Positions 4,206 through 55,967 of a stretch of DNA of 62,208 bases are shown piece by piece; positions within the stretch are counted from its first letter, which is position 1; every line of letters begins with the position of its first letter. The notes below the pieces were generated by a model. The model worked only from the letters and a program-made list of their open reading frames with translations, was not told where the DNA came from and ran no database searches. The DNA comes from a virus: the IMG/VR virus record IMGVR_UViG_3300048778_000101, positions 1 to 62,208 of that record; one strand, given 5' to 3'. The position numbers and the translations under genes are program-made.

Positions 4206-4620
4206 CAACGACGACTTAGACGCTCTTCTGCTGGCGCTAACTCCGGCTAAGATCCGGCCAGATGAACCCGATACCGCTAAGAGAAAAGCTGTACAGGAGC
4301 AATTGCGTCGGCAGGGGCCTGAGTTTGAATGGACTACCATTTCCCACTTAGCTATGATGAGCGTGTTCCAGTGCTCTCGGTGCGGAGATGAGGTGGTGGC
4401 ATTCTCCCACTACATGTTGCGACAGACGCACAGAACTAGCAGAATAACCCGGTTTGTAGCGGCTACGCCAGTCATCTTGGCCGAAACGCTGCCTGGGGCG
4501 CTCGGTAAGCCTGATGAAGTCGGCTTTCAGATTAAGACGGTTCCCCACTGCACGAAATGTTTGCAAGTGGATTTCAGTGGAATAGACTATCTCCGTAGCC
4601 TTGTTGTGAGGATTGGGTAA
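4198..4620 (+). CDS. Zinc-ribbon-like protein ahead of endolysin
   Basis: 140 residues from the ATG at 4198, which overlaps the preceding gene by 8 bases. The N-terminal 45 residues are acidic and helical. Two CxxC knuckles (CSRCGDE near residue 60 and CTKCLQV near residue 120) suggest a structural zinc site. Its stop overlaps the start of the endolysin (TAATG), so the two are probably translationally coupled. No specific function can be assigned. Confidence 0.75.
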   Translation: MTDNDDLDALLLALTPAKIRPDEPDTAKRKAVQEQLRRQGPEFEWTTISHLAMMSVFQCSRCGDEVVAFSHYMLRQTHRTSRITRFVAATPVILAETLPGALGKPDEVGFQIKTVPHCTKCLQVDFSGIDYLRSLVVRIG

Positions 4621-5237
4621 TGATTGTAACGACGGAATTGCTGCAGGGGGCCGTCCCTGGCCTGGAGCGGGTGGAATTTTGGGCAACTAGGTTGGCGCCG
4701 GTACTGTCTGACTACTGTATTTCAGACACACCGGAACGGCTGGCGGCTTATATTGCAGTCACCGCACATGAAACTGGGAATTATACAGATCTGGAGGAAA
4801 ATCTAAACTATACAGAAGCGGGACTTGTGAAAACTTGGCCCGAGCGTTTTAACCAACAGACTGCGGGAACTTACGCGCATAACGCAGTAGTTATAGCTAA
4901 CCGGGCTTATGCAAATCGGATGGGGAATGGCCCGGAAAGTTCAGGAGATGGCTACCGTTATCGTGGTCGCGGGCTTATACAACTTACGGGAAAGGATAAT
5001 TATCTCAAATATGGGTACATGATGGAACTGGATCTACTCAACAAGCCCGACCTACTGGCCCAGCCAAATCTCGCCATCGAAAGCTCCGCCATCTTCTGGA
5101 CAAATCACAACCTCAATGACTTGGCGGATGCTGGAAACTTCCAAGAACTGCGAAGAATTGTCAATGGTGGAACTATCGGAATGACGGACTATCTGAAACG
5201 TCTTGACACAGCCCTGACCTATCTGCGGAGTTTGTGA
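4620..5237 (+). CDS. Endolysin, glycoside hydrolase family 19 (chitinase-like)
   Basis: 205 residues of the family used by many phages to cut the glycan strands of peptidoglycan at the end of infection. Visible family motifs in order: TAHETGNY (H50-E51, with the catalytic Glu), EENLNYTEAGL (residues 59-69, second acidic residue), an ANRAYANRMGNG stretch and YRGRGLIQLTG (about residue 120). The length fits a single catalytic domain without a cell-wall-binding module or signal peptide, so it needs a holin to reach its target. Unusually, it sits in the rightward early arm and not in the late operons. Confidence 0.93.
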   Translation: MIVTTELLQGAVPGLERVEFWATRLAPVLSDYCISDTPERLAAYIAVTAHETGNYTDLEENLNYTEAGLVKTWPERFNQQTAGTYAHNAVVIANRAYANRMGNGPESSGDGYRYRGRGLIQLTGKDNYLKYGYMMELDLLNKPDLLAQPNLAIESSAIFWTNHNLNDLADAGNFQELRRIVNGGTIGMTDYLKRLDTALTYLRSL

Positions 5238-25668: not shown

Positions 25669-26259
25669 CTATACAGCCGCCGCATTGCCTGAAGAGGTCA
25701 GAGGCCCATACTGGGGATTAGTTGCATTACTAACCCCATTATAAATCCCCTGCCCAAGTGTGGACGCCCCCGAGATTGCGTTGGCATTTCCCAGCAAACC
25801 TGCCGTAGACTGCAAACCAGCCGAGGTCGTGGCCTGACTAGCCTGCGCCCCATACAAACCGCTCTGAGCAGAATAATTAGTTGCTTGCGTACCGTATCCG
25901 TAAGCTTGCAACAGTGCGTTGTGCATCACGTTTAATTCCGATAATTCACCCTTTTGAGAGGTGGCTTGAATTACCTTAGCAGCCGAGCCAGAATTGATAT
26001 CGACGCCTTCCGAGGCTAGTGAAGCTCCCACCATAGCCGTCTGTTGAGCAGCTTGCAAACCAGCTTGAGTAGCGGACGCTTGCCCGGCCTGGATAGATGC
26101 AGTTTGGTTTTGTTGCGCAGCTTGGGCATTGTTGGCAGCCACCTGCGCTTGATACCTGGCCTCGGCAGATTGCGCTTGCCCGGATTGATAAGAACTATAA
26201 GCGGTGACACTGGCGGCGGTAACTGCGGCAACAGCACTAACAACGGCGGCGGTTCCCAT
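25669..26259 (-). CDS. Internal virion protein, T7 gp14-like
   Basis: 196 residues, rich in Ala, Gln, Ser and Gly. A hydrophobic N-terminus (AVVSAVAAVTAASVTAY) is followed by long helices with Gln/Ala repeats. In T7-like phages the small ejection protein of this kind forms a pore in the outer membrane. Order and composition support the call; direct sequence similarity is not assessed. Confidence 0.82.
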   Translation of the reverse strand: MGTAAVVSAVAAVTAASVTAYSSYQSGQAQSAEARYQAQVAANNAQAAQQNQTASIQAGQASATQAGLQAAQQTAMVGASLASEGVDINSGSAAKVIQATSQKGELSELNVMHNALLQAYGYGTQATNYSAQSGLYGAQASQATTSAGLQSTAGLLGNANAISGASTLGQGIYNGVSNATNPQYGPLTSSGNAAAV

Positions 26260-26264
26260 AATCT

Positions 26265-27725
26265 CTACTCCAAGCTAAGGGCGTACAAAGACCCGATGCA
26301 TTTAGCTCCGAGCCTTTCAAACAAGTATGTCTGCTTGTCCCCATTTCCCCGGACACCCGCGCGTAGGATCAACTGCTTAACCCCCTTAGCTGCCAGTTTC
26401 TCGCGGGCATATTTATGCATCTTAAGCCCCAGTTTCCCGCGGAATTCCTTACGCACGAAAAATGTATTCTGATAGCCAATTAGGGCATCCTTGCTTTCAT
26501 AGCTGGGATTGATAAGAAATACAAGATATCCAACAACCCCTGAGAAAGTCCTAGCAGTTACCACCTGCAAATAGCCTAATCTTTCGTGCGCTTTATACAA
26601 GTCCCAGTTTATGTCGGGGGGCAGTTCCGGGACAGTTCCAGCATCTTCGTAGTGGAGCCGAAAGCATTCAGAACCATCTGCCTGAAGCGCGGCCACAGAC
26701 TCTTCTTGTATAGTTACATGGGCGCACAGCTCATCAATTACCGAAGCTATGTGATCCTGCCTGATTGCGAGCCTGTTCCAGCGATCCTGCATGTTTATTT
26801 GGATATTCTGCTTAGCCAAGTCAGCCCACCAAGCTCTGTCAAATGGGAGATCCAAGCAGAACTCAAACACCTCTGCGCAAGTAGCTTCCTCAGGCAGATC
26901 GGCGTAGTTAACCGTAAGCACACCAGGGAGCTTTGAGATAGCATCCAGACGGTTTGACTCTTCTTGTAAATAACCTGCGGGGAATTCCCAGCCGAACTTT
27001 GATGCGCTCTCCGCAACTTCCCCAATCGGGCGCTTAACCACAACTACCCGCAACTCCCCCAACTCGTCTGCCAGGAAATGAAATGCCCTAGCCATCCCCG
27101 TTTCAACAGTACCTGTCTTAGGCATCCGTAGGCGGTTTACCAAATCTTCTGTAGAGTCTACATCCACCAGCATATCATGGTAGAAGTCCCAGCCAGCATA
27201 GGACAGAAACACGGACAGCCAGGTTGTCCTGGAGCGGGGCAGTCCGAGAACTAGTACCGGAGTGGTAACGCCCCCTGGAACTGGTTTCCGCCAACGATAA
27301 ATCTCCTGGCCCTCGGGACAGTCATTCCCAAATACCTTAACAAACCCCAGTTTCCGAATATACCTAACCGCAGTCTCATCGTGGCTCATAACTGTGGCTG
27401 TGATCTCGTCATGCGATGTTTTAAGCCAGCTAAGACCGTTATTGCAGATAGTTAGGAACTCTCGCGGGTACCGTAGACCCTCTTGACTGACTGCGATCCA
27501 GACATGCACGCTATTAGAGACGAGGGTTCCAATAATACCCCCCATTCCCATTAGTTTCCCATCCAAGAACCATGAGAAAACTTCACGGGATTTGATGAAA
27601 ATATCTCTAAGTTCCTTGTGGGGGTTTAGCCCCAACTCCCGCAGGCAATTCAAATGCTCGGGCCTAAGTCTACGAACCAATAGGCCAGCCTGGAAGATCT
27701 TAGCTTCTCGCAGTTCCGAGATCAT
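26265..27725 (-). CDS. GNAT - sulfotransferase-like - GNAT fusion protein
   Basis: 486 residues from the ATG at 27725, which overlaps the tail-nozzle stop (TAATG); an upstream start would run 57 bases into that gene. Residues 1-145 have a GNAT-like fold pattern (IAVSQEGLRYPREF, ETAVRYIRKLGFVKVF) like the acetyltransferase-type T7 gp13 group. Residues about 155-360 begin with VLVLGLPRSRTTWLS (161-171), the phosphosulfate-binding loop of sulfotransferases, and include VVVKRP. Residues about 385-486 form a second GNAT domain with FVRKEFRGKLGLKM (acetyl-CoA loop) and LFERLGAKCIG. Its place among virion genes suggests a virion or ejected enzyme. Confidence 0.85.
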   Translation of the reverse strand: MISELREAKIFQAGLLVRRLRPEHLNCLRELGLNPHKELRDIFIKSREVFSWFLDGKLMGMGGIIGTLVSNSVHVWIAVSQEGLRYPREFLTICNNGLSWLKTSHDEITATVMSHDETAVRYIRKLGFVKVFGNDCPEGQEIYRWRKPVPGGVTTPVLVLGLPRSRTTWLSVFLSYAGWDFYHDMLVDVDSTEDLVNRLRMPKTGTVETGMARAFHFLADELGELRVVVVKRPIGEVAESASKFGWEFPAGYLQEESNRLDAISKLPGVLTVNYADLPEEATCAEVFEFCLDLPFDRAWWADLAKQNIQINMQDRWNRLAIRQDHIASVIDELCAHVTIQEESVAALQADGSECFRLHYEDAGTVPELPPDINWDLYKAHERLGYLQVVTARTFSGVVGYLVFLINPSYESKDALIGYQNTFFVRKEFRGKLGLKMHKYAREKLAAKGVKQLILRAGVRGNGDKQTYLFERLGAKCIGSLYALSLE

Positions 27726-30700
27726 TACCGAGTTCCTTGCTGGCGGGGACGGGCTTCTATCTGAGGAGTATCCCCCACCCAAACCTCGGGCACAAGTGCT
27801 AATACATTCATAGGCAGCGGATAGTCTTGTTGCAAAGCTACCTGCCCAGAGCGAGCAAAGCCGCCGCTAACTGGGATGCGCACATCCCCGGTATAGAGTG
27901 GGGTAGCTACGCCCCCGGCCAGTTGGGGGGAAGTGAATGGGTAGGGGGAATATAAATTACCGTAAGGCGGCTCAAATTGGGTATCCGGTACAGTGCTCAA
28001 ATTCTTCCAATTAGGGGCTATCTGCGGCGGGTTTTGCACAGAACCATCGGGCTGATTAGCTCCCACCTTAATTCCGCGGGAAGCTTCAAGTCTCGCCGTA
28101 ACTGCCGCAATCTTCTTGCGCTGGCCCTGGACTGTGGGGGAGCCGGCATCGAGATAAACACTTTGCAATTGGGCTTGGTAAGCCAGCCCTATGGTGATCT
28201 GCGAGGCACTGTTGGCTAAAGTAATGGTCCCTTGGGGGGATACCATCTGCGGGGGAATTACAATACCATCCGCGAGGCCAGTAACTACCAGCCCGGCCAG
28301 GTGATTTAGCCCATATACAACGGTAATGGGGGTACTGTACTCCCAATCTCCCAATACTGTTCCGTAAGTTCCGGGTAGTATTAGTGCCGGCACCCCAGGC
28401 ACAGTTGCCGTGAAGGGGGCTACAATATTTACCGTGAGTGCATCAAACCGACCTGCCGTAAAAACGGTGCTTGTAGTTATGGCGATCCCATTTCCGCCGC
28501 GAATAACTGTCCCTATGGGGAGGGTTGCTAGGATAGATGTGGGGACAGTTAGCACTGGCAAGCAGTAAAATGTGGCGGAATTATCCAATACACAGTGCGC
28601 GGAAGCCCCACTGCCTGTTCCGGCGGGATCTGAGATAGAGATTTTCGGGGTAACGTAGCCGGAACCTGCCATAGAGACGGTAACTCCGGTGAGCACCCCA
28701 CCAGTTATAACGGGACTAAGAACTGCCCCCACCCCATCTCCAGTAGTATCTGCTACAGTTACCGTAGTTCCGCTGGAGTAGCCAGTTCCCCCTGCTTCGA
28801 TAACTACACTAGCAATAGCCCCCAGCCCGTAAACACTCTCCACGATGAGATTAGCATCCGCAACTACAGGGCTGCTGTTGGCGGGGATAGTTCCAGTTTT
28901 CGCAATCCCGCTGTCCACACACCAAGAAGTTTCGGCGCTATTCCATAAGCGATTGTCCATACGCTCGATGGTGTAGGTACTACTGCCATTAACAATCCGG
29001 CGCACACAGCAGTACAAGGCGTCTACAGGAGGCTCCGTGACAGCGCAGACGCTCTCGAACAAGCCCGCCGTGTCATGCCGAGCCCACCCGAGCACTTCCT
29101 GTTGCTTCAGGATTGTTAAACTAAGCAGAACCCCATCATCGCGAACTGCCCAAATTACCTTGTAGGGTTCCTCGCACCAAGCCCATTGTTTAATGGTGTG
29201 GCCGATAAATAGATGCGAAGATAATTGGGTAAGATCCGTGCCCGTGTAGATATTTTGGAAGAATTGGTAGGAGATATCCCGAACAATGGAACCTTTCGCC
29301 TGAACGTAGAGGATATCGAAATCAATCCGGATTGGGGGGACTGTGGAAGAGATGCCATTGTAGGCTTGAGGTTGGGCGCTAACTCCGGAGGGGGTTATGG
29401 GCTGCACACTGTAGATGGAAGAGCCGGCTCCGGTAACTTGCCAAGCGGATAGCCCGGTTAGAACTACCAATCCGCCGGGCATGGGCACCAGCCATTGAAC
29501 TCCGTTAACCTGAACTGACCACGGGGTAGCTACAATAGAATCAGTATCGATAGGGGGAACCCGACTATCGAAATTGTTAAAAGCCCCTGACTGCGACATC
29601 CACAAAGTATCGGGGTTATTGATAGTTGAGGCAAACACCCGGCGCTCTTGGAAATAGCCGGGCACTGCTGGATAGGTGCCGGACTGGGGGCCGATTACCA
29701 GACTAGCTGTAGGGGCGACAGATCCGCTGATAAAGGTGGGGACGAGCGTAATTGTATCCGCAGCGGCGTAGCCAAAGCCAGAGTTAGTTACCACAAAGTT
29801 CTGGAAAACGCCATTGTCCCCAATCACGGCGTAACCGGAGAAGCCTGAGCCGGTGGTGGTGTTTATAGTTGCCGTAACCGCTGAAACCGGGTCACCAGCG
29901 CTTGTGGTATTGATTGTTAAAATCTGCCCGTGCGCAAACGGGTTATTGTGGATAGGAGGCACCCGCGAGTAATCTGCCGTAATGTTATTATCGACAAAAG
30001 TAGTGCCGTAACTGGTTCCGATAAACCCGAACAAGCTGCCAGAAGTGATTAGAGAGTAGCCGGTTATTGTGTTGTAGACGTTGTAGGCGGGAGGGGCTTT
30101 GTAGTAGTTGTAGTAGCCGGCTCCGGAAGTTGGGGAGCATTCGATAACTTCCGATCCAGCGGTTACATCAATTTCCACGCTGTTGGTAATTATGGCTACC
30201 GGAGATGCGGGGCTCTCCTCGCCGGTAGCGGCATCAACTGCGGTGGCTACGTATTGGTAGACGGTTGGGGAAGTCCCGGAGGAGACTGTTGTAGTGGCGC
30301 GGCCAGTTATTGAAGCTGGAGCTGCAATTGCAGCTACTGGGGCAGCTTCTGTAAGCGTCCAGGAGTTGTTAGCAGCTCCTCGCACCAAGTCGTAAGGGGG
30401 ATATTCGCTACCCGTCGTGGAGTTAACGCAGCAGAGTGTCATGGTATTTGCGGACTGCGTGTATTTAAGGTACTCTAAGTCAACGGCTGCCCAAGGCGTG
30501 GTGAAGGTGAATACTCGGGTAGCCGTGGAATAAGGAGTTCCATAGATAAAAGGGACATATCCCAGCGTAGATGCCGGGTTCCCAAATGCGTCAAGAAGGC
30601 TGAAACTGGTAGAGGATAGTTTGTTAATTACATAGATATTTCCGTTTAGGTTAAGCATGGTGGAATTGTTGTCGAAGTAGGTGTAGTCGAAGGTAGAAAA

Positions 30701-31084
30701 GCCATGGGGAGCTGTGGTGACTACCACGCCGGGAGTGGCTAGGGTTACGCTGGCAATGGTAGCGGAGACGGTGTCGAGTACATAGGCGCCTTGGTAAATT
30801 ACGCGCATGTAGTGATCGCCAAATTCCAGACAAAGCCCCTGGGCGGTAGAGAACTGGAAGGGAATTAAGCGCGGGGGAGGGGCGCCCGCAAAACCTCCGA
30901 GAGATTGCTTGCTAACTCCCACGAAAGCAGTTCCAGCGCGGGAATAGGCTCCTCCGCGGTAGCTGACAAACATATTTCGCATAGTGGAAGCTGCGGAGTG
31001 GAATTTGGCTAGGTCTACATGGCCGAATAGGGAGGGGGAAATTTCGCCAGAGGCGAAGGCCGTTTGAATAACTGGTACAGACAT
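27725..31084 (-). CDS. Tail nozzle protein (T7 gp12-like, tail tubular protein B)
   Basis: 1,119 residues with GAGG before the start. The N-terminus (TAFASGEISPSLFGHVDLAKFHS, then RNMFVSYRGGAYSRAG) is the hallmark of podovirus tail tubular protein B. It is longer than the T7 protein (about 790); the extra length includes Gly/Val/Thr-rich beta repeats (VVIEAGGTGYSSGTTVTVAD and a similar GFGYAAADTITL). It is the first gene of late operon 2. Confidence 0.92.
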   Translation of the reverse strand: MSVPVIQTAFASGEISPSLFGHVDLAKFHSAASTMRNMFVSYRGGAYSRAGTAFVGVSKQSLGGFAGAPPPRLIPFQFSTAQGLCLEFGDHYMRVIYQGAYVLDTVSATIASVTLATPGVVVTTAPHGFSTFDYTYFDNNSTMLNLNGNIYVINKLSSTSFSLLDAFGNPASTLGYVPFIYGTPYSTATRVFTFTTPWAAVDLEYLKYTQSANTMTLCCVNSTTGSEYPPYDLVRGAANNSWTLTEAAPVAAIAAPASITGRATTTVSSGTSPTVYQYVATAVDAATGEESPASPVAIITNSVEIDVTAGSEVIECSPTSGAGYYNYYKAPPAYNVYNTITGYSLITSGSLFGFIGTSYGTTFVDNNITADYSRVPPIHNNPFAHGQILTINTTSAGDPVSAVTATINTTTGSGFSGYAVIGDNGVFQNFVVTNSGFGYAAADTITLVPTFISGSVAPTASLVIGPQSGTYPAVPGYFQERRVFASTINNPDTLWMSQSGAFNNFDSRVPPIDTDSIVATPWSVQVNGVQWLVPMPGGLVVLTGLSAWQVTGAGSSIYSVQPITPSGVSAQPQAYNGISSTVPPIRIDFDILYVQAKGSIVRDISYQFFQNIYTGTDLTQLSSHLFIGHTIKQWAWCEEPYKVIWAVRDDGVLLSLTILKQQEVLGWARHDTAGLFESVCAVTEPPVDALYCCVRRIVNGSSTYTIERMDNRLWNSAETSWCVDSGIAKTGTIPANSSPVVADANLIVESVYGLGAIASVVIEAGGTGYSSGTTVTVADTTGDGVGAVLSPVITGGVLTGVTVSMAGSGYVTPKISISDPAGTGSGASAHCVLDNSATFYCLPVLTVPTSILATLPIGTVIRGGNGIAITTSTVFTAGRFDALTVNIVAPFTATVPGVPALILPGTYGTVLGDWEYSTPITVVYGLNHLAGLVVTGLADGIVIPPQMVSPQGTITLANSASQITIGLAYQAQLQSVYLDAGSPTVQGQRKKIAAVTARLEASRGIKVGANQPDGSVQNPPQIAPNWKNLSTVPDTQFEPPYGNLYSPYPFTSPQLAGGVATPLYTGDVRIPVSGGFARSGQVALQQDYPLPMNVLALVPEVWVGDTPQIEARPRQQGTR

Positions 31085-32093: not shown

Positions 32094-32969
32094 CTAATAA
32101 GCGGACCCGTCCGAAAACCCGCAGGTATCCCAGCCATAACCCAAAGTGCCCATACCCGCAGCGAACCCGCCAGCCCCCCAGAGCCTAGTCCCGCTATCCC
32201 TAATCCGCATCCAATCCGGCGTATGGTCCGTAGAATACCAACCCTCATTCCCATCCGTAATCCGAGCTTGCTGCAACTTACTCTTAGCAACGGCAATCTG
32301 TTGCCCCCGCAACTCCAGCCCAAACTTTTTATCCTTACTCAATGTAAGCGCAACCTCACTAGCCAAATAAGCCACAAAGGCCGCCCTAAACAATGCATCC
32401 CAAATACTCGGAAACATAACCAGCGACGTGTAAACCAACTGCGCCTGCGCTACATTAGTCAAGATAACAGTCTGCCCCGTCGGACTAACCCCAGGCTGCT
32501 CCCAATACTGCCCTTGCATCGGAGGGATGTTATTAAAATCCGTAGCTACCGTAAACCTAGCCGGAACCATCCGTATCGAACTTTGCGTGGGCGAACCAAC
32601 CTGCGCCACCGGATTAGGCGGAGCCATAATATTCCCCGGAGCCCCACTCGCCGTGGAGTTAAATGCATTAACCGGAACAAACCTAGCCTTAACGCAATCC
32701 GCCGGATACTGATACTCATACTGCCACGGAACCGGAACTACAGTCCCCACATTAGGCGTCTGCCCACTCCCGTCAGCCAGCAGAAAGAGGGGCGCTGTCT
32801 TTCTGGCAAAATCCCAATGTGCAGCACGCAGCAACTGCCGAACGCACTGCCCATAGGCCCGTAAGCATACCTGCGCCTCCCGCGTCCCCTCTTCCAAATC
32901 GCCAATTACGACCTCGCTTCCAATCGCATCCAATGCTTGATTAACTACATCTGCGGGTAAATTAGCCAC
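32094..32969 (-). CDS. Tail adaptor paralogue 4 (T7 gp11-like)
   Basis: 291 residues, the longest of four tandem homologues. It keeps the N-terminal helix pattern (ADVVNQALDAIGSEVVIGDLEEGT), the YGQCVRQLLRAAHWDFARKT stretch and a PWQYEYQYPADCVKAR core. The C-terminal 60 residues are an extension ending in a Gly-rich piece. Proteins of this group form the ring between portal and nozzle and keep packaged DNA in place. It is the last gene of late operon 1. Confidence 0.85.
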   Translation of the reverse strand: MANLPADVVNQALDAIGSEVVIGDLEEGTREAQVCLRAYGQCVRQLLRAAHWDFARKTAPLFLLADGSGQTPNVGTVVPVPWQYEYQYPADCVKARFVPVNAFNSTASGAPGNIMAPPNPVAQVGSPTQSSIRMVPARFTVATDFNNIPPMQGQYWEQPGVSPTGQTVILTNVAQAQLVYTSLVMFPSIWDALFRAAFVAYLASEVALTLSKDKKFGLELRGQQIAVAKSKLQQARITDGNEGWYSTDHTPDWMRIRDSGTRLWGAGGFAAGMGTLGYGWDTCGFSDGSAY

Positions 32970-32971
32970 AA

Positions 32972-33598
32972 TTAGCCCCTTTCCGAGGTGGCTTCAACCG
33001 TACTGCGCAAGGCTAGATCGGCATCCAGTTTCTGCTCGGCCAGCCTCTCCTGCGTCAGTATAGCTATCCTAGGAGATAGTCTTTCCGCCAGCTTAGCCAC
33101 AAGCACTTCCACGAACAACGGCTCCCAGGTGGACATGTCTGTAACTTGCCCGGTGTAGGTCAGAATTGCCCCAGTCACATTGCAGCAAATTGTCTTCTGC
33201 GCGGGCGAATACGACGTATCATTAATCACCGCAAACGAATTAGGCTGCGGATCGAAATTAGGTATCCAAAGCGGAGCGGCTTTAATCGATCGCACTTTAA
33301 GACAATCGCCGGGATAACTATATTCAAACATCCACGGGATCGGGGGATACGCGGGGCTCCAGACCGTAGGCGGAATATACCCATTAGCCGGAGCTACCTT
33401 CAGCACACTTAAGGACAAGTTTCTTTCTGCAAACCCATAGTCATTCGCACGAAGGGCCTCATCCCTAGTCTGAGAATACACCTCCAGGGCAGCTTCAGCA
33501 GCCGGGCTTCCCTCGAACAAATTACCGATACGCCGATCAAACCCCAGCCTCACCAGAGCTTGATTTACAATATCCTCTGGCGAAGTTGGGGATGACAT
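32972..33598 (-). CDS. Tail adaptor paralogue 3
   Basis: 208 residues. SPEDIVNQALVRLGFDRRIGNLFEGS, then QTRDEALRANDYGFAERN and IPWMFEYSYPGDCLKVRSI are nearly the same as in the next gene upstream (33602). It is closest to that paralogue, so this pair is the most recent duplication. Three bases separate it from its neighbours on both sides. Confidence 0.87.
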   Translation of the reverse strand: MSSPTSPEDIVNQALVRLGFDRRIGNLFEGSPAAEAALEVYSQTRDEALRANDYGFAERNLSLSVLKVAPANGYIPPTVWSPAYPPIPWMFEYSYPGDCLKVRSIKAAPLWIPNFDPQPNSFAVINDTSYSPAQKTICCNVTGAILTYTGQVTDMSTWEPLFVEVLVAKLAERLSPRIAILTQERLAEQKLDADLALRSTVEATSERG

Positions 33599-33601
33599 AG
33601 C

Positions 33602-34225
33602 TTAAGTTTCCGTAACAGAAGCGACCTGGAACGCATTATCAGCATCCGTATCACTCTGTTTCAGCAGAGCTTCAATGTGCTGCATATTAGCCAGCGCAAC
33701 GGTGAAAGCTTTGGCCAATTTATCAACCAGCGCATTTACGAACAACGTATCCCAAGTGGTCATATCCGTAATTTGGCCAGTGTAGGTCAGAACCAAATTC
33801 GGAGCATTTGCCAGGATAACTCGCTGCGGAGGCGTGTACGCGCTATCATTGCCCACGGCAAAATGCTGCGGAAGCGGGTCCAAATTAGGCAGAACAGCCG
33901 GAGTACTCTGAACATACAGCACTCGGATGCAGTCTGAGGGATAAGCATACTCATATTCCCAAGGGAGAATAGGATATGTATTCGCCCAAGGAGTTGAGCC
34001 ATAGCCACCTGTGGGGGCAGATTTAAGCTGCGTCAAAGTTACAGTTCGCTGCGCAAACCCCCAGTCTTTCATACGCAGGGCTTCATCACGGCTCTGGGAA
34101 TACAAATCCAACGCCAACTTACTGGCCGGACTGCCTTCAAACAAGTTACCAATTCGGCGCGGGTAGCCGAGCTTCCCCAGCGCCATATTAACAATGTCTT
34201 CTGGAGACGTAACGCTACTAGCCAT
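33602..34225 (-). CDS. Tail adaptor paralogue 2
   Basis: 207 residues from the ATG at 34225, which overlaps the upstream stop (TGATG). SPEDIVNMALGKLGYPRRIGNLFEG, YSQSRDEALRMKDWGFAQR and LPWEYEYAYPSDCIRVLYV mark it as an adaptor of the T7 gp11 type, closely related to paralogue 3. Confidence 0.87.
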   Translation of the reverse strand: MASSVTSPEDIVNMALGKLGYPRRIGNLFEGSPASKLALDLYSQSRDEALRMKDWGFAQRTVTLTQLKSAPTGGYGSTPWANTYPILPWEYEYAYPSDCIRVLYVQSTPAVLPNLDPLPQHFAVGNDSAYTPPQRVILANAPNLVLTYTGQITDMTTWDTLFVNALVDKLAKAFTVALANMQHIEALLKQSDTDADNAFQVASVTET

Positions 34226-34788
34226 CAATCTTGCCTTTCCTGGCCAACTTGTTCAAACGCCGCCGACTGGTCTAGCGTATCTCTGGAGGTATCCGGTTTA
34301 CCTGCAATTGCCATAGCCATGCTGGAAGCCAACATCCGCACAACAGTTTCGCGGAAAATAGAGTCCCACAAGTTCTCCGATGGGACATTTGTATACATAA
34401 CTTGTGCATTCGGCAAGTTAGTTTGGATTACTTTTGTTGGAATTCCGCCCACCAGGGAATTAGCGACCTCCCATCGAATGGGCAACGGGTTAAAAGGATC
34501 TGCGAGTGTCGGAGGATTTAACTGCCGGACTTGGATACCATTCGGATACAGGTACTCAACAGTCCACGGGAACGGGGCGGTATTCCCTGACAGAACCAGC
34601 GCGGCAGTGGTTCGAGAAAAATCCCAGCCGAACCGACGGCCTACAGTTTCAACCGTCGGAAGATACAAAGAAGCAGCCGCTACACCCGCAGGAGAACTGT
34701 CAAATGTAGGATAAGTCCCAGTAACTGGGGTTTGATTATCCCCGATTAGCTGGATAGCTTGGTTAACGATGTCAGTTGATGTAACCAT
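34225..34788 (-). CDS. Tail adaptor paralogue 1
   Basis: 187 residues. TSTDIVNQAIQLIGDN, LPTVETVGRRFGWDFSRTTA and FPWTVEYLYPNGIQVRQL show the same fold as the three following genes, but it is the most divergent in sequence. Why four copies exist is open: a hetero-oligomeric ring, or stages with different roles. Confidence 0.83.
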   Translation of the reverse strand: MVTSTDIVNQAIQLIGDNQTPVTGTYPTFDSSPAGVAAASLYLPTVETVGRRFGWDFSRTTAALVLSGNTAPFPWTVEYLYPNGIQVRQLNPPTLADPFNPLPIRWEVANSLVGGIPTKVIQTNLPNAQVMYTNVPSENLWDSIFRETVVRMLASSMAMAIAGKPDTSRDTLDQSAAFEQVGQERQD

Positions 34789-37143: not shown

Positions 37144-37644
37144 TTAACTCGGAAGTGTCCAAACGACTGCTTGGACGGCGGCTTCTGTGGTTGCGGCGCA
37201 GATCTCAGCCGCAAGAACAGAATTTTGAACGACAAGCGCCTCTTTAGCCACGCTGCCATCCTGTAGAACCTTCAAGATTTGCGGGGCCGTGTGTGCGACA
37301 TAGCCCCAATTTCCAGAAGCATCGGCGCACCAGAACTTTCCGCCAATACCGCCAGCCACCAAACCCACCAGATTGGCTTGGTCGGTTTGGCCTGACGGAT
37401 AGGTATAGACCGCCCCAAGCGCGGAAGACTGAAAGCCCCCAATAATGGCCGACGCACATCCAGCAGATACGGCGTAAATTTGAGTGTCTTGCGCCTGCGC
37501 CAGGGCGGCGGCGGCATAACCCGGAAAGGCCGTGGCCAGTTGGGCCGGGGTGGGGAAATCGTCGAACAACACCTCGCCGGCAGCCGGCGTGTGATCGTTG
37601 GAACAGCAGGAAATGTAGCTCCCATTACCACTCGCTACATACAT
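37144..37644 (-). CDS. DUF4376-like tail-associated protein
   Basis: 166 residues from the ATG at 37644, coupled to the previous stop (TGATG) with GAGGAG upstream. The segment with AGCASAIIGGFQSSALG, TYPSGQTDQANL and FWCADASGNWGYVAHTAPQI matches the DUF4376 domain found in phage tail-fibre regions. It is GC-richer than the genes on either side. Its role is unknown, perhaps fibre assembly or decoration. Confidence 0.78.
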   Translation of the reverse strand: MYVASGNGSYISCCSNDHTPAAGEVLFDDFPTPAQLATAFPGYAAAALAQAQDTQIYAVSAGCASAIIGGFQSSALGAVYTYPSGQTDQANLVGLVAGGIGGKFWCADASGNWGYVAHTAPQILKVLQDGSVAKEALVVQNSVLAAEICAATTEAAVQAVVWTLPS

Positions 37645-38567
37645 CACAAAGACTCCTCATAACCGCGAGTGCCGATTTGAGACCATTTGTTACAGCTTGT
37701 CGCCCAATAGATATTGGTCGTCTCAAGGGAAATCGACACATCGACGACGTTCGTGAGTATTCCGAATGACGTTACGAGGTTAGTAAAGTACACTTCCGTT
37801 GTTTGACCGTCGTTATAAGAGACATTGCACGCACTGTTGGGGGCAACCATCATTCCACTAGTTGTGTTGTTAGACTGACTAAATAGCTGGACATGCACCA
37901 TTCTCGCGGTCGAAGCGACAAACGGAGACACCGAAACGGCGACCCAGGTGGGATTGACAATATTCCCTACCCCGCCTGAAGAGCTAACCAATGTAGGCAG
38001 GGTGATGGTATTTGTGCCAGCCGTATTAACATAAGTCACGCGAGACCCACGTTGCATCGTCCTGTACAAGTACGGGCCGGCATCGGTGAGGAGCGGCCCG
38101 GCATAGGCCCAATAGGTATAGCCGCTGGGCAGCGTCGGCGCTGTCCCACTGAAGGGCGATTGCAGCGACATCAAGGACGAAACCGTGGTGCCGTTGTAGA
38201 TCGCATAGAGGTAATACCAAGTCGAGGCGGCCAGACTGCCCGTATCCAAGCCTCCGGCGCCAACCGTCCCGGTCGCCACGGTCGCATTGACGCCACTGAG
38301 AACGACGGTCGCCCCCGCGCTGTTGACCGCCGTCAGATAGGCCGCGGTGATGGTGGCGGCCGTATTGTTGGCGACGACCACCTTCTTGCCGATGTGGCTA
38401 TGTGGGAGACTTCCACCCCCACCCCCACCCCCACCACTACCGCTGCCATTACTGGCAGCCGTTACAAACCCTTTAGAATTAACGGTGATATTGGCATTGG
38501 TATAGCTTCCGGGGACCACACCCGTCGGGAGGAGTGGTGGGCCTGGCGGAATGGGCAACAGCGGCAT
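37644..38567 (-). CDS. Tail fibre-like protein
   Basis: 307 residues. A Pro-rich start is followed by VVPGSYTNANITVNSKGFVT, the repeat common in tail fibre shafts, then a polyglycine hinge (eight Gly) and SLPHSHIGKK. The C-terminal 230 residues are Ser/Thr/Val-rich beta sequence. Base composition is clearly GC-richer than in most of the genome, which suggests acquisition by recombination. Confidence 0.75.
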   Translation of the reverse strand: MPLLPIPPGPPLLPTGVVPGSYTNANITVNSKGFVTAASNGSGSGGGGGGGGSLPHSHIGKKVVVANNTAATITAAYLTAVNSAGATVVLSGVNATVATGTVGAGGLDTGSLAASTWYYLYAIYNGTTVSSLMSLQSPFSGTAPTLPSGYTYWAYAGPLLTDAGPYLYRTMQRGSRVTYVNTAGTNTITLPTLVSSSGGVGNIVNPTWVAVSVSPFVASTARMVHVQLFSQSNNTTSGMMVAPNSACNVSYNDGQTTEVYFTNLVTSFGILTNVVDVSISLETTNIYWATSCNKWSQIGTRGYEESL

Positions 38568-53737: not shown

Positions 53738-55147
53738 ATGCAAAATGCCGAGGCCACGGGGCTTGCTACTAGGCTGCTGGGGGTAGCTCCAGATAGTGGC
53801 GCGGGCGAGGCGGATATTGCCAACCTTGCTGATCGCATTACGCACAGGTCGCAGACCCGTGGCGCCGTCCGGGAGTGGCTAATCAGCGCGGGTTTGCCGC
53901 TGGAGGCGACAGTAACTACACGCGCCAGGACACTGGCACAGGCCTATTTAGTCCCGAGCTACCGCGCCACACTGATACGCGCGCGGGGGGCAGCCGCTCC
54001 GGCCTCGGCATTGCTGGCGGATCTAGCCGCTTTTGCGGCACCAGATGCCCCTCGACCAGCTGTGCAGACTGTGGAGAGTGTGCAGATTGCCGAGAGTGTG
54101 CAGATTGCCGAGACCGCTCCCAACTCCCCTGCCGCGGTTGACATTGCCGTCGTAACTGCACGCGTGTTTACCCTGCTGACGCCGGATATAGCACGCGCTC
54201 ATGCTGATATGCGGCACGCGCTTGAAGGGCAGCTGGTGGACGGCATGGCTGACGTAGTGGCTCAGACTTGCAAGGCCGCTACCGCGTATATTGATGCCCG
54301 GCTGCCCCCACGTATGATCACGGTCAAGTCCCCGACAGGCGGCGAGATTAGCGTCGGCTTGCAGCATGCGCAATTCCCTGCTCTTTTGAGGGCATGTGGC
54401 GCCCGTGATCACAAAGGCAATAGGCTCAATATATGGCTTACTGGCGCGGCTGGCTCGGGCAAAACCAGCGCGGCCGAAGCCGTAAGCAAAGCTTTAGGTC
54501 TGGATTTTTGTTTTGACGGCGCCCTTGACGCGGATTATAGGGTCTTGGGATTTAGAGATGCCGCTGGCGCTGTTGCCGAGACCAATTTTCGCCGGGCATT
54601 TGTCCACGGCGGCATTTACGTGGCGGATGAAATCGATAGCTGGCATCCGCAAGCCCTGCTGGCGCTAAATGCGGCACTAGCTAACGGGGTGGCGAGTTTT
54701 CCCGACGGTATTTTCCACCGGCATCCGGATTGCGTAGTTATCGCTTGCGCGAATACTTGGGGGCACGGCGCTACACATGAGTATGTCGGCCGGGCTAAGC
54801 TAGACGCCGCCAGTCTTGATCGATTTTTTCCGAAGATCGAATGGAAAACCGACGAAAAGCTAGAGACGGAGATTGCCCGGCAAATGGCGGGTGAAATTGG
54901 GATTATTTGGGCTAAATTTGTGCAAGGCCACCGCCGACGGGTTAGCGAGCAAGGTCTCCGGGTGGTAGTCACACCACGGATGACATTCTCGGGAATTAGT
55001 CTGCTGCTGCAAGACTTTACGGCCGGCGAAGTTGTCGAAATGACGGCGCAGGCCGGGCTTAGCCAGGAACAGCAGGATGCGCTACGGCTGGCGGAATATG
55101 CATCCAGGGTGGCGGTGGAAATCCGCGAAGTCCCGAAAGGCCCATAA
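53738..55147 (+). CDS. MoxR/CobS-like AAA+ ATPase
   Basis: 469 residues. The AAA+ core occupies residues about 225-400: Walker A GAAGSGKT (236-243), Walker B VADEID (297-298 are the key Asp-Glu), sensor 1 in VVIACANTWG, and a RFFPKIEW box. This is the CbbQ/MoxR/CobS branch, whose members remodel partner proteins, often together with a VWA-domain protein. The first 220 residues are Ala-rich with a short tandem repeat (QIAESVQIAE). The gene is GC-richer than most of the genome. The G11 run 8 bases before the ATG acts as ribosome-binding site. Confidence 0.9.
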   Translation: MQNAEATGLATRLLGVAPDSGAGEADIANLADRITHRSQTRGAVREWLISAGLPLEATVTTRARTLAQAYLVPSYRATLIRARGAAAPASALLADLAAFAAPDAPRPAVQTVESVQIAESVQIAETAPNSPAAVDIAVVTARVFTLLTPDIARAHADMRHALEGQLVDGMADVVAQTCKAATAYIDARLPPRMITVKSPTGGEISVGLQHAQFPALLRACGARDHKGNRLNIWLTGAAGSGKTSAAEAVSKALGLDFCFDGALDADYRVLGFRDAAGAVAETNFRRAFVHGGIYVADEIDSWHPQALLALNAALANGVASFPDGIFHRHPDCVVIACANTWGHGATHEYVGRAKLDAASLDRFFPKIEWKTDEKLETEIARQMAGEIGIIWAKFVQGHRRRVSEQGLRVVVTPRMTFSGISLLLQDFTAGEVVEMTAQAGLSQEQQDALRLAEYASRVAVEIREVPKGP

Positions 55148-55148
55148 G

Positions 55149-55967
55149 ATGATTAAGCGCTATCCCAGCGTGGCGGCACTCGCTAAAGCTTGGCAGGACT
55201 GCCCGCACAAAAAGCCTCGGGCGACCGATTGGTACAACGGCGAAAGTGCGAATGACACCTACCGCAAAGCGCTTAATGGGGATGCCTCGCTGGTCCCAGC
55301 GGCTGAAAAGCTTCTAAGTAAACTATCCGCGTCCCTGGAAACGCCACTCCGCAGCATTCACAGGGCGCCGTGCGGTGGCTGGCCAGCTATCCCAGATTAT
55401 TTAATGGGCAGTCCCACGCCCATGCGACGTTTTGAGCATACCTCCGAGGATATAGCGCCTATTAGGGTGGTCTCAATCTGCACATCGTCGGCGGGGCTTG
55501 ATGCCCGGATGCTGCAAAAGCGAGGAATAGCTATCCTCGCCTTGGTCCTAGCACTGGCGCAAAGCCGGCCAGTCACGCTTGAGGTTGCCGGGGTACTGGG
55601 TGGAATTGACTGCGATCGGAAAAAGGGTGAATTTATTCCAATTACGGAAATTAACACTAAACCCTTGGACTTAGCTACGGCTTGCTACGTGCTTACAAGC
55701 TCCGGCTTTGATAGACGCATTCATCACGACTTAACTAGGCAATACATGCTGGCCACCTACGACGCGGAATGGGCTGGTGCTTGGGCGCCTGGGTTTAGCC
55801 ACGATAACCCGCAAGCTTATTTTGACACCCTAGCCGATCGGCTAGAATACCCCCGCGACAAAACGCTGGTGATTGGCGGCGCTCACTTGTCTGACAAGCT
55901 ACTATCTAACCCTGTGGCTTGGGTGCAGGGACAGATTGACCGATTTACGCAAATTGCGAAGGACTGA
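55149..55967 (+). CDS. Putative VWA-like partner of the AAA+ ATPase (DUF7192-like)
   Basis: 272 residues from the ATG at 55149, one base after the ATPase stop (TAAGATG), so co-translated. The N-terminal 60 residues have a WYNGESANDTYRKALNGD motif; the core has IRVVSICTSSAGLDARMLQK, then RGIAILALVLALAQSRPVTL, which has the strand-loop-helix pattern of a von Willebrand A fold. The first MIDAS Asp appears replaced (CTSSAG instead of DxSxS). Phage CobS-like ATPases are often followed by such a protein. The VWA assignment is an inference. Confidence 0.75.
   Translation: MIKRYPSVAALAKAWQDCPHKKPRATDWYNGESANDTYRKALNGDASLVPAAEKLLSKLSASLETPLRSIHRAPCGGWPAIPDYLMGSPTPMRRFEHTSEDIAPIRVVSICTSSAGLDARMLQKRGIAILALVLALAQSRPVTLEVAGVLGGIDCDRKKGEFIPITEINTKPLDLATACYVLTSSGFDRRIHHDLTRQYMLATYDAEWAGAWAPGFSHDNPQAYFDTLADRLEYPRDKTLVIGGAHLSDKLLSNPVAWVQGQIDRFTQIAKD

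Follow-up and report, generated by a model that had tools for sequence, protein, structure and literature searches.

A T7 gp13-like domain joined to sulfotransferase-like and GNAT domains in the gene slot before the first ejection protein of a podophage-type virus

We describe a viral gene whose product combines three domains: a T7 gp13 homologue, a sulfotransferase-like domain and a C-terminal GNAT domain. The second and third domains occur in other viruses as an independent protein that, like the gp13-like family, fills the slot immediately before the first gene for an ejection protein. Hence, the protein described here unites two families that otherwise share one slot. The gene lies in the window, the whole stretch of DNA analysed here, which is the complete IMG/VR virus record IMGVR_UViG_3300048778_000101 of 62,208 bases with late genes of the BPP-1/HTVC010P-like podophage type. 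A preliminary description had recognised an acetyltransferase, sulfotransferase-like and acetyltransferase fusion but missed that its last two domains form a widespread two-domain family of the same slot.

The fusion gene and its neighbours

The features of the gene and of its surroundings are the following:

27725..31084, minus strand: upstream neighbour, tail nozzle/tubular B protein (gp12-like; phrog_376, E 2e-158)
26265..27725, minus strand: three-domain fusion gene, intact ORF of 486 aa, same architecture in contig L136
27276..27725, minus strand: N-terminal domain, residues 1-150, T7 gp13 homologue with a GNAT fold lacking the acetyl-CoA loop
26727..27263, minus strand: middle domain, residues 155-333, P-loop domain assigned by sequence to the sulfotransferase superfamily
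27213..27245, minus strand: 5'-phosphosulfate loop GLPRSRTTWLS, residues 161-171 (PRS in 36/36 members)
27006..27032, minus strand: 3'-phosphate motif R232-x7-S240 (invariant, 36/36 members)
26268..26723, minus strand: C-terminal GNAT domain, residues 335-486 (Acetyltransf_1, phrog_1249, GNAT structures at Z ~16)
25669..26259, minus strand: downstream neighbour, gp14-like internal virion (ejection) protein (phrog_418, E 2e-15)

The start codon of the fusion gene and the stop codon of the tail-nozzle gene overlap (TAATG), and 5 bp separate the end of the fusion gene from the gp14-like gene. That the product has three parts, as proposed before, is borne out by the intact 486-aa ORF, by a PHROGs match to each part and by an AlphaFold model of the whole protein (37 homologues; pLDDT 85, pTM 0.69) with the predicted order GNAT, P-loop, GNAT. 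A PDB fold search with this full model covered its GNAT parts, since GNAT domains fill the matches listed.

A frameshift or an assembly error could in principle have joined separate genes. This is excluded by an unrelated contig, L136 (IMGVR_UViG_3300003375_000346), which encodes the same three-part protein (488 aa) in the same slot and between the same neighbours. The two proteins are 27, 38 and 40% identical in the first, second and third domain, respectively; the nozzles share 45-52% identity and the gp14-like proteins 45% over 112 residues. A scan for further three-domain members with the L136 protein returned L136 only, and a scan with the window protein returned none. Five loci that had appeared as candidates (L194, L199, L201, L204 and L209) were rejected, their N-terminal extensions being arginine-rich out-of-frame overhangs. 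The architecture had been suspected to be undescribed, and it matched nothing in 50,697 phage records and a single other IMG/VR contig; in the annotated collections and the literature searched, we found neither the three-domain architecture nor the ejection-linked two-domain family.

Several other features of the record may be mentioned. The nozzle protein (27725-31084, minus strand) is enlarged to 1119 aa, and its residues 748-832 match baseplate-wedge repeats (phrog_438). Four consecutive genes at 32094-34788 on the minus strand (291, 208, 208 and 187 aa) all belong to phrog_394 (tail protein, tubular A-like) and are tandem paralogues; another contig, L056, carries three ORFs of similar size at this position. 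The product of 37644-38567 (minus strand) weakly matches the second domain of Mtd, the BPP-1 receptor-binding protein diversified by a DGR, but the record yielded no reverse transcriptase. On the plus strand, 53738-55967 encodes an AAA ATPase (phrog_249, CobS/MoxR-like, 'porphyrin biosynthesis') that overlaps a phrog_1909 gene, and 4620-5237, in the early/middle region, encodes a GH19 chitinase-class protein that is likely an endolysin.

The three domains

Residues 12-129 match phrog_308, internal virion protein (E 3e-11), the PHROGs family of T7 gp13 itself (E 1e-42); in Pfam, T7 gp13 is PF11090, named 'probable scaffold protein'. A direct comparison of the N-terminal family profile with T7 gp13 by hhalign gave a probability of 97.4 (E 1.4e-11). 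The gene also has the position by which the gp13 family is recognised, between tail tubular B (phrog_376) and a gp14-like gene (phrog_418), and the T7 gp13-like placement made in the preliminary description is thereby confirmed. Modelled alone (29 homologues), the domain reaches a pLDDT of 94.5 and resembles GNAT structures at Z ~14. The acetyl-CoA motif [QR]xxGx[GA] expected at the beta4-alpha3 junction is present in none of the 29 family members. Because the acetyl-CoA pyrophosphate loop is absent, the earlier term 'acetyltransferase-type' holds for the fold and not for the activity of this domain, which probably represents a GNAT fold without normal use of acetyl-CoA. The T7 gp13 family (PF11090, phrog_308) shares this homologous domain and is likewise encoded between tail tubular B and gp14, but T7 gp13 is a single-domain protein of 138 aa without fused transferase domains. 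Cobavirus and RCA roseophages likewise encode a GNAT-fold protein beside the internal virion genes, at the gp13 position (PMC6775973, PMC6918029), and its correspondence to gp13 has already been proposed (PMC6775973). Unlike the window protein, it is a single GNAT without a sulfotransferase-like domain.

The middle domain matches phrog_10855, called 'hydrolase', over residues 158-333 (E 8e-15), and in a Pfam search the window protein gave a sub-threshold match to Sulfotransfer_3. When the 36 members of the middle-domain family were searched singly at E<=0.1, Sulfotransfer_3 was matched by 25 (best 2e-6) and Sulfotransfer_4 by 18, and no other unrelated Pfam family recurred among them. The comparison by hhalign with a reference profile of genuine Sulfotransfer_3 domains (PF13469; six aligned domain sequences from bacterial genomes) gave a probability of 96.8 and E 2e-10, collinear over 144 columns, while controls with P-loop NTPase proteins of the same phage and with the GNAT family stayed below 1%. 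The viral structure library BFVD contains a phage 'Sulfotransferase family' protein that matches with a target TM of 0.80, and a PDB sequence search with the middle-domain profile gave weak matches only, several sulfotransferases among them.

The residues invariant in all 36 divergent middle domains are P, R, S, W and H, plus the R and the S of the R-x7-S motif. In the PRS of the 5' loop an Arg replaces the Lys of SULT enzymes, as it also does in the aligned genuine Sulfotransfer_3 domains. R232 and S240 correspond to Arg130 and Ser138 of estrogen sulfotransferase, which have the same spacing and bind the 3'-phosphate of PAP (motif definition in PMC4199319). Region IV, GxxGxxK, is absent from the conserved columns of the family alignment; it defines SULT-type enzymes and not the whole sulfotransferase superfamily. 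Since the PAPS motifs are invariant and the profiles match, membership of the middle domain in the sulfotransferase superfamily is well supported by sequence. The preliminary description had named the domain sulfotransferase-like and had asked whether a PAPS-binding fold might be lacking; the motifs and the profile comparison uphold the assignment. In the search for a phage-encoded supply of PAPS, no protein of the record matched APS kinase above the cut-off; a weak match at 54428 was rejected, being an AAA P-loop.

A standalone relative of the middle domain is found in Pseudomonas and Stenotrophomonas siphophages (phrog_10855). It belongs to the same family, with ~30% identity and the same invariant residues, but is a single-domain protein encoded away from ejection genes; its phiH1 member is annotated 'similar to sulfotransferase'. 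With the bacterial Sulfotransfer_3 (PF13469) enzymes the phage domain has in common the PRS of the 5' loop and the R-x7-S of the 3'-phosphate site, while it is compact (~180 aa) and in the window protein falls below the Pfam cut-off.

In the C-terminal domain, residues 377-482 match the acetyltransferase family phrog_1249 (E 8e-5), residues 384-473 match Acetyltransf_1 above the Pfam cut-off, and the modelled residues 335-486 resemble many GNAT structures at Z ~16 over ~140 residues. The GNAT fold named in the preliminary description is thus found here, but not the acetyl-CoA loop in its usual form: the full motif [QR]xxGx[GA] occurs in 0 of 37 C-terminal domains, and the loop is shortened and non-canonical, with GxG kept in 31 of 37 and the window protein's own loop reading FRGKLGL. 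Acetyl transfer may have been lost, because the loop is absent from the N-terminal domain and non-canonical in this one. Each part of the fusion protein is of a known kind.

A shared slot upstream of the first ejection gene

Scans of IMG/VR revealed that the middle and C-terminal domains also exist on their own, as a protein of about 352 aa. Relatives were confirmed at 209 loci, and the best 80 of these 209, matched over nearly full length, were kept and form 35 groups at 80% identity. The two-domain gene is present in at least 80 other viral sequences, and probably in over 200. Full-length relatives were found neither in 50,697 annotated phage records (tblastn, two members as queries) nor in plasmids (tblastn, a third member as query). 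Although frequent in uncultivated phages, the family did not turn up in annotated phage records, and the sole PHROG that covers its middle domain is one called 'hydrolase'. A first scan of bacterial genome contigs gave no two-domain copy; a second found copies in Azospirillum rugosum, a Nevskia MAG and a Rhizobiales MAG. The copy of A. rugosum IMMIB AFH-6 (L219) is 87% identical and lies in a prophage-like region, where 2 bp separate the gene from a gp14/gp7-like gene downstream. As this strain is in culture, the region offers an experimental handle.

The coupling of the two-domain gene to its downstream neighbour is tight, the next gene starting 0-6 bp downstream in 72 of 76 loci. Ejection or internal-virion PHROGs account for 32 of 36 representative downstream genes, the window's own included (phrog_598 in 27, phrog_418 in 3 and phrog_4287 in 2). 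P22 gp7 belongs to phrog_598, and the downstream ejection partner is P22 gp7-like or T7 gp14-like. In T7 this slot is taken by gene 13 and in P22 by gene 14. P22 gene 14 ('head morphogenesis', DUF2824, phrog_651) ends 2 bp before ejection gene 7, which is the same type of slot, but its product has no sequence similarity to the window protein, the two-domain family or the other slot families that a profile comparison could detect. Among the BFVD matches to the full model with its two GNAT domains is a DUF2824 protein, A0A5B9N4R0, which suggests a possible GNAT fold for P22 gp14 as well.

Among the loci found via the nozzle gene, the contents of the slot vary. Roughly two dozen carry a single gp13-like GNAT, L063 a gp13-like protein and a second GNAT as separate genes, L022 a two-domain protein, and L136 and the window the three-domain protein. 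BPP-1, DC33 and many relatives have an empty slot, so the function is dispensable in some lineages. In L205 a gp13-like gene and a two-domain gene are present in one cluster, as separate genes. PfAn1 was considered as a split version of the fusion and rejected, since its upstream gene encodes an Asp/Asn hydroxylase and not a sulfotransferase domain. A 2OG-type hydroxylase-like protein beside a GNAT is found in PfAn1 (L005, 2494-3558) and in DC33 (L017, 3369-4441). The PfAn1 hydroxylase is an Asp/Asn beta-hydroxylase by Pfam; together with its GNAT it lies directly upstream of the ejection genes, a further case of two modifying enzymes sharing this slot.

In a phylogenetic tree, which is unrooted and has L136 on a long branch, the window protein falls with L136 in one clade (99/96), separate from 35 two-domain sequences. 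The simplest history is one event that fused two proteins filling the same slot.

A putative role in the assembly of the ejection machinery

What the two joined families have in common is a slot translationally close to the ejection-protein gene. We favour the reading that the protein is a late morphogenesis factor that would modify or chaperone the ejection proteins, and give it, tentatively, a probability of about 0.45. The gene would have arisen by joining a gp13-like assembly factor to the sulfotransferase-like and GNAT protein that fills the same slot in many podophages, and its product would act in the infected cell during assembly of the internal core. The gp13-like domain might dock on the gp14/gp7-type ejection protein as it is made, or on the core, and the two transferase domains might then modify it covalently, with sulfuryl from PAPS and acetyl from acetyl-CoA. 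Alternatively, one of the transferase domains may serve as a folding or assembly chaperone. We infer the assembly role from the annotations of T7 gp13 and P22 gp14 and from synteny, and likewise infer the substrate and the catalysis of the fusion protein; gene adjacency alone does not establish a shared target. T7 gp13-type proteins have been linked to virion morphogenesis (PMC6775973), and proteomics of phiPsa17 particles detected 11 proteins, which included gp14, gp15 and gp16 but not gp13 (PMC4517105). On these grounds we prefer a late assembly factor.

The assembly reading has to be weighed against a late moron enzyme that would sulfate or acetylate small molecules or the glycans of the host surface, for instance to keep progeny from re-adsorbing, with the late operon providing the timing only. 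Bacterial Sulfotransfer_3/NodH-type enzymes often modify glycans. This habit of the enzyme class speaks for such an enzyme, as do the standalone middle domains outside virion operons in the Pseudomonas and Stenotrophomonas siphophages, the varying occupancy of the slot and the hydroxylase and GNAT in that of PfAn1. We nevertheless consider it unlikely, given the near-constant tight coupling to an ejection-protein gene across T7-like and P22-like phages and the fusion to a gp13 homologue; in addition, no transmembrane or export feature was noticed, albeit without a formal scan.

All three domains might instead be transferase folds that have lost activity altogether and are reused as protein- or nucleotide-binding modules of a scaffold or chaperone. 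The missing loop of the N-terminal family, the altered C-terminal loop and the scaffold-like annotation of T7 gp13 would fit. We judge this rather improbable, since the P, R, S and R-x7-S of the PAPS site and the adjacent His are invariant among 36 divergent domains, which argues for retained use of the cofactor. Packaging and action on host molecules at entry, the idea of the preliminary description, agrees with the position among internal virion genes and with the PHROG name 'internal virion protein', but the particle composition of phiPsa17 (PMC4517105) and the scaffold-type Pfam name of T7 gp13 speak against it, and an effector ejected with the core proteins is quite unlikely.

It is possible, if doubtful, that many short-tailed phages encode an ejection-coupled sulfotransferase and acetyltransferase enzyme, held in place in the present lineage by a gp13-type domain, that modifies ejection proteins post-translationally during assembly. 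For T7 gp13, a role as scaffold or morphogenesis factor is still an inference, and the annotation of P22 gp14 goes no further than morphogenesis protein. The occurrence of transferase folds in one slot across T7-like, BPP-1-like and P22-like phages, together with the invariant PAPS-site residues of the sulfotransferase-like domain, leads to the testable proposal that enzymes modify or mature the ejection proteins before these are packaged. There is a modest chance that the finding points to such a step; if true, it would be an unrecognised modification in the building of the DNA-ejection machine.
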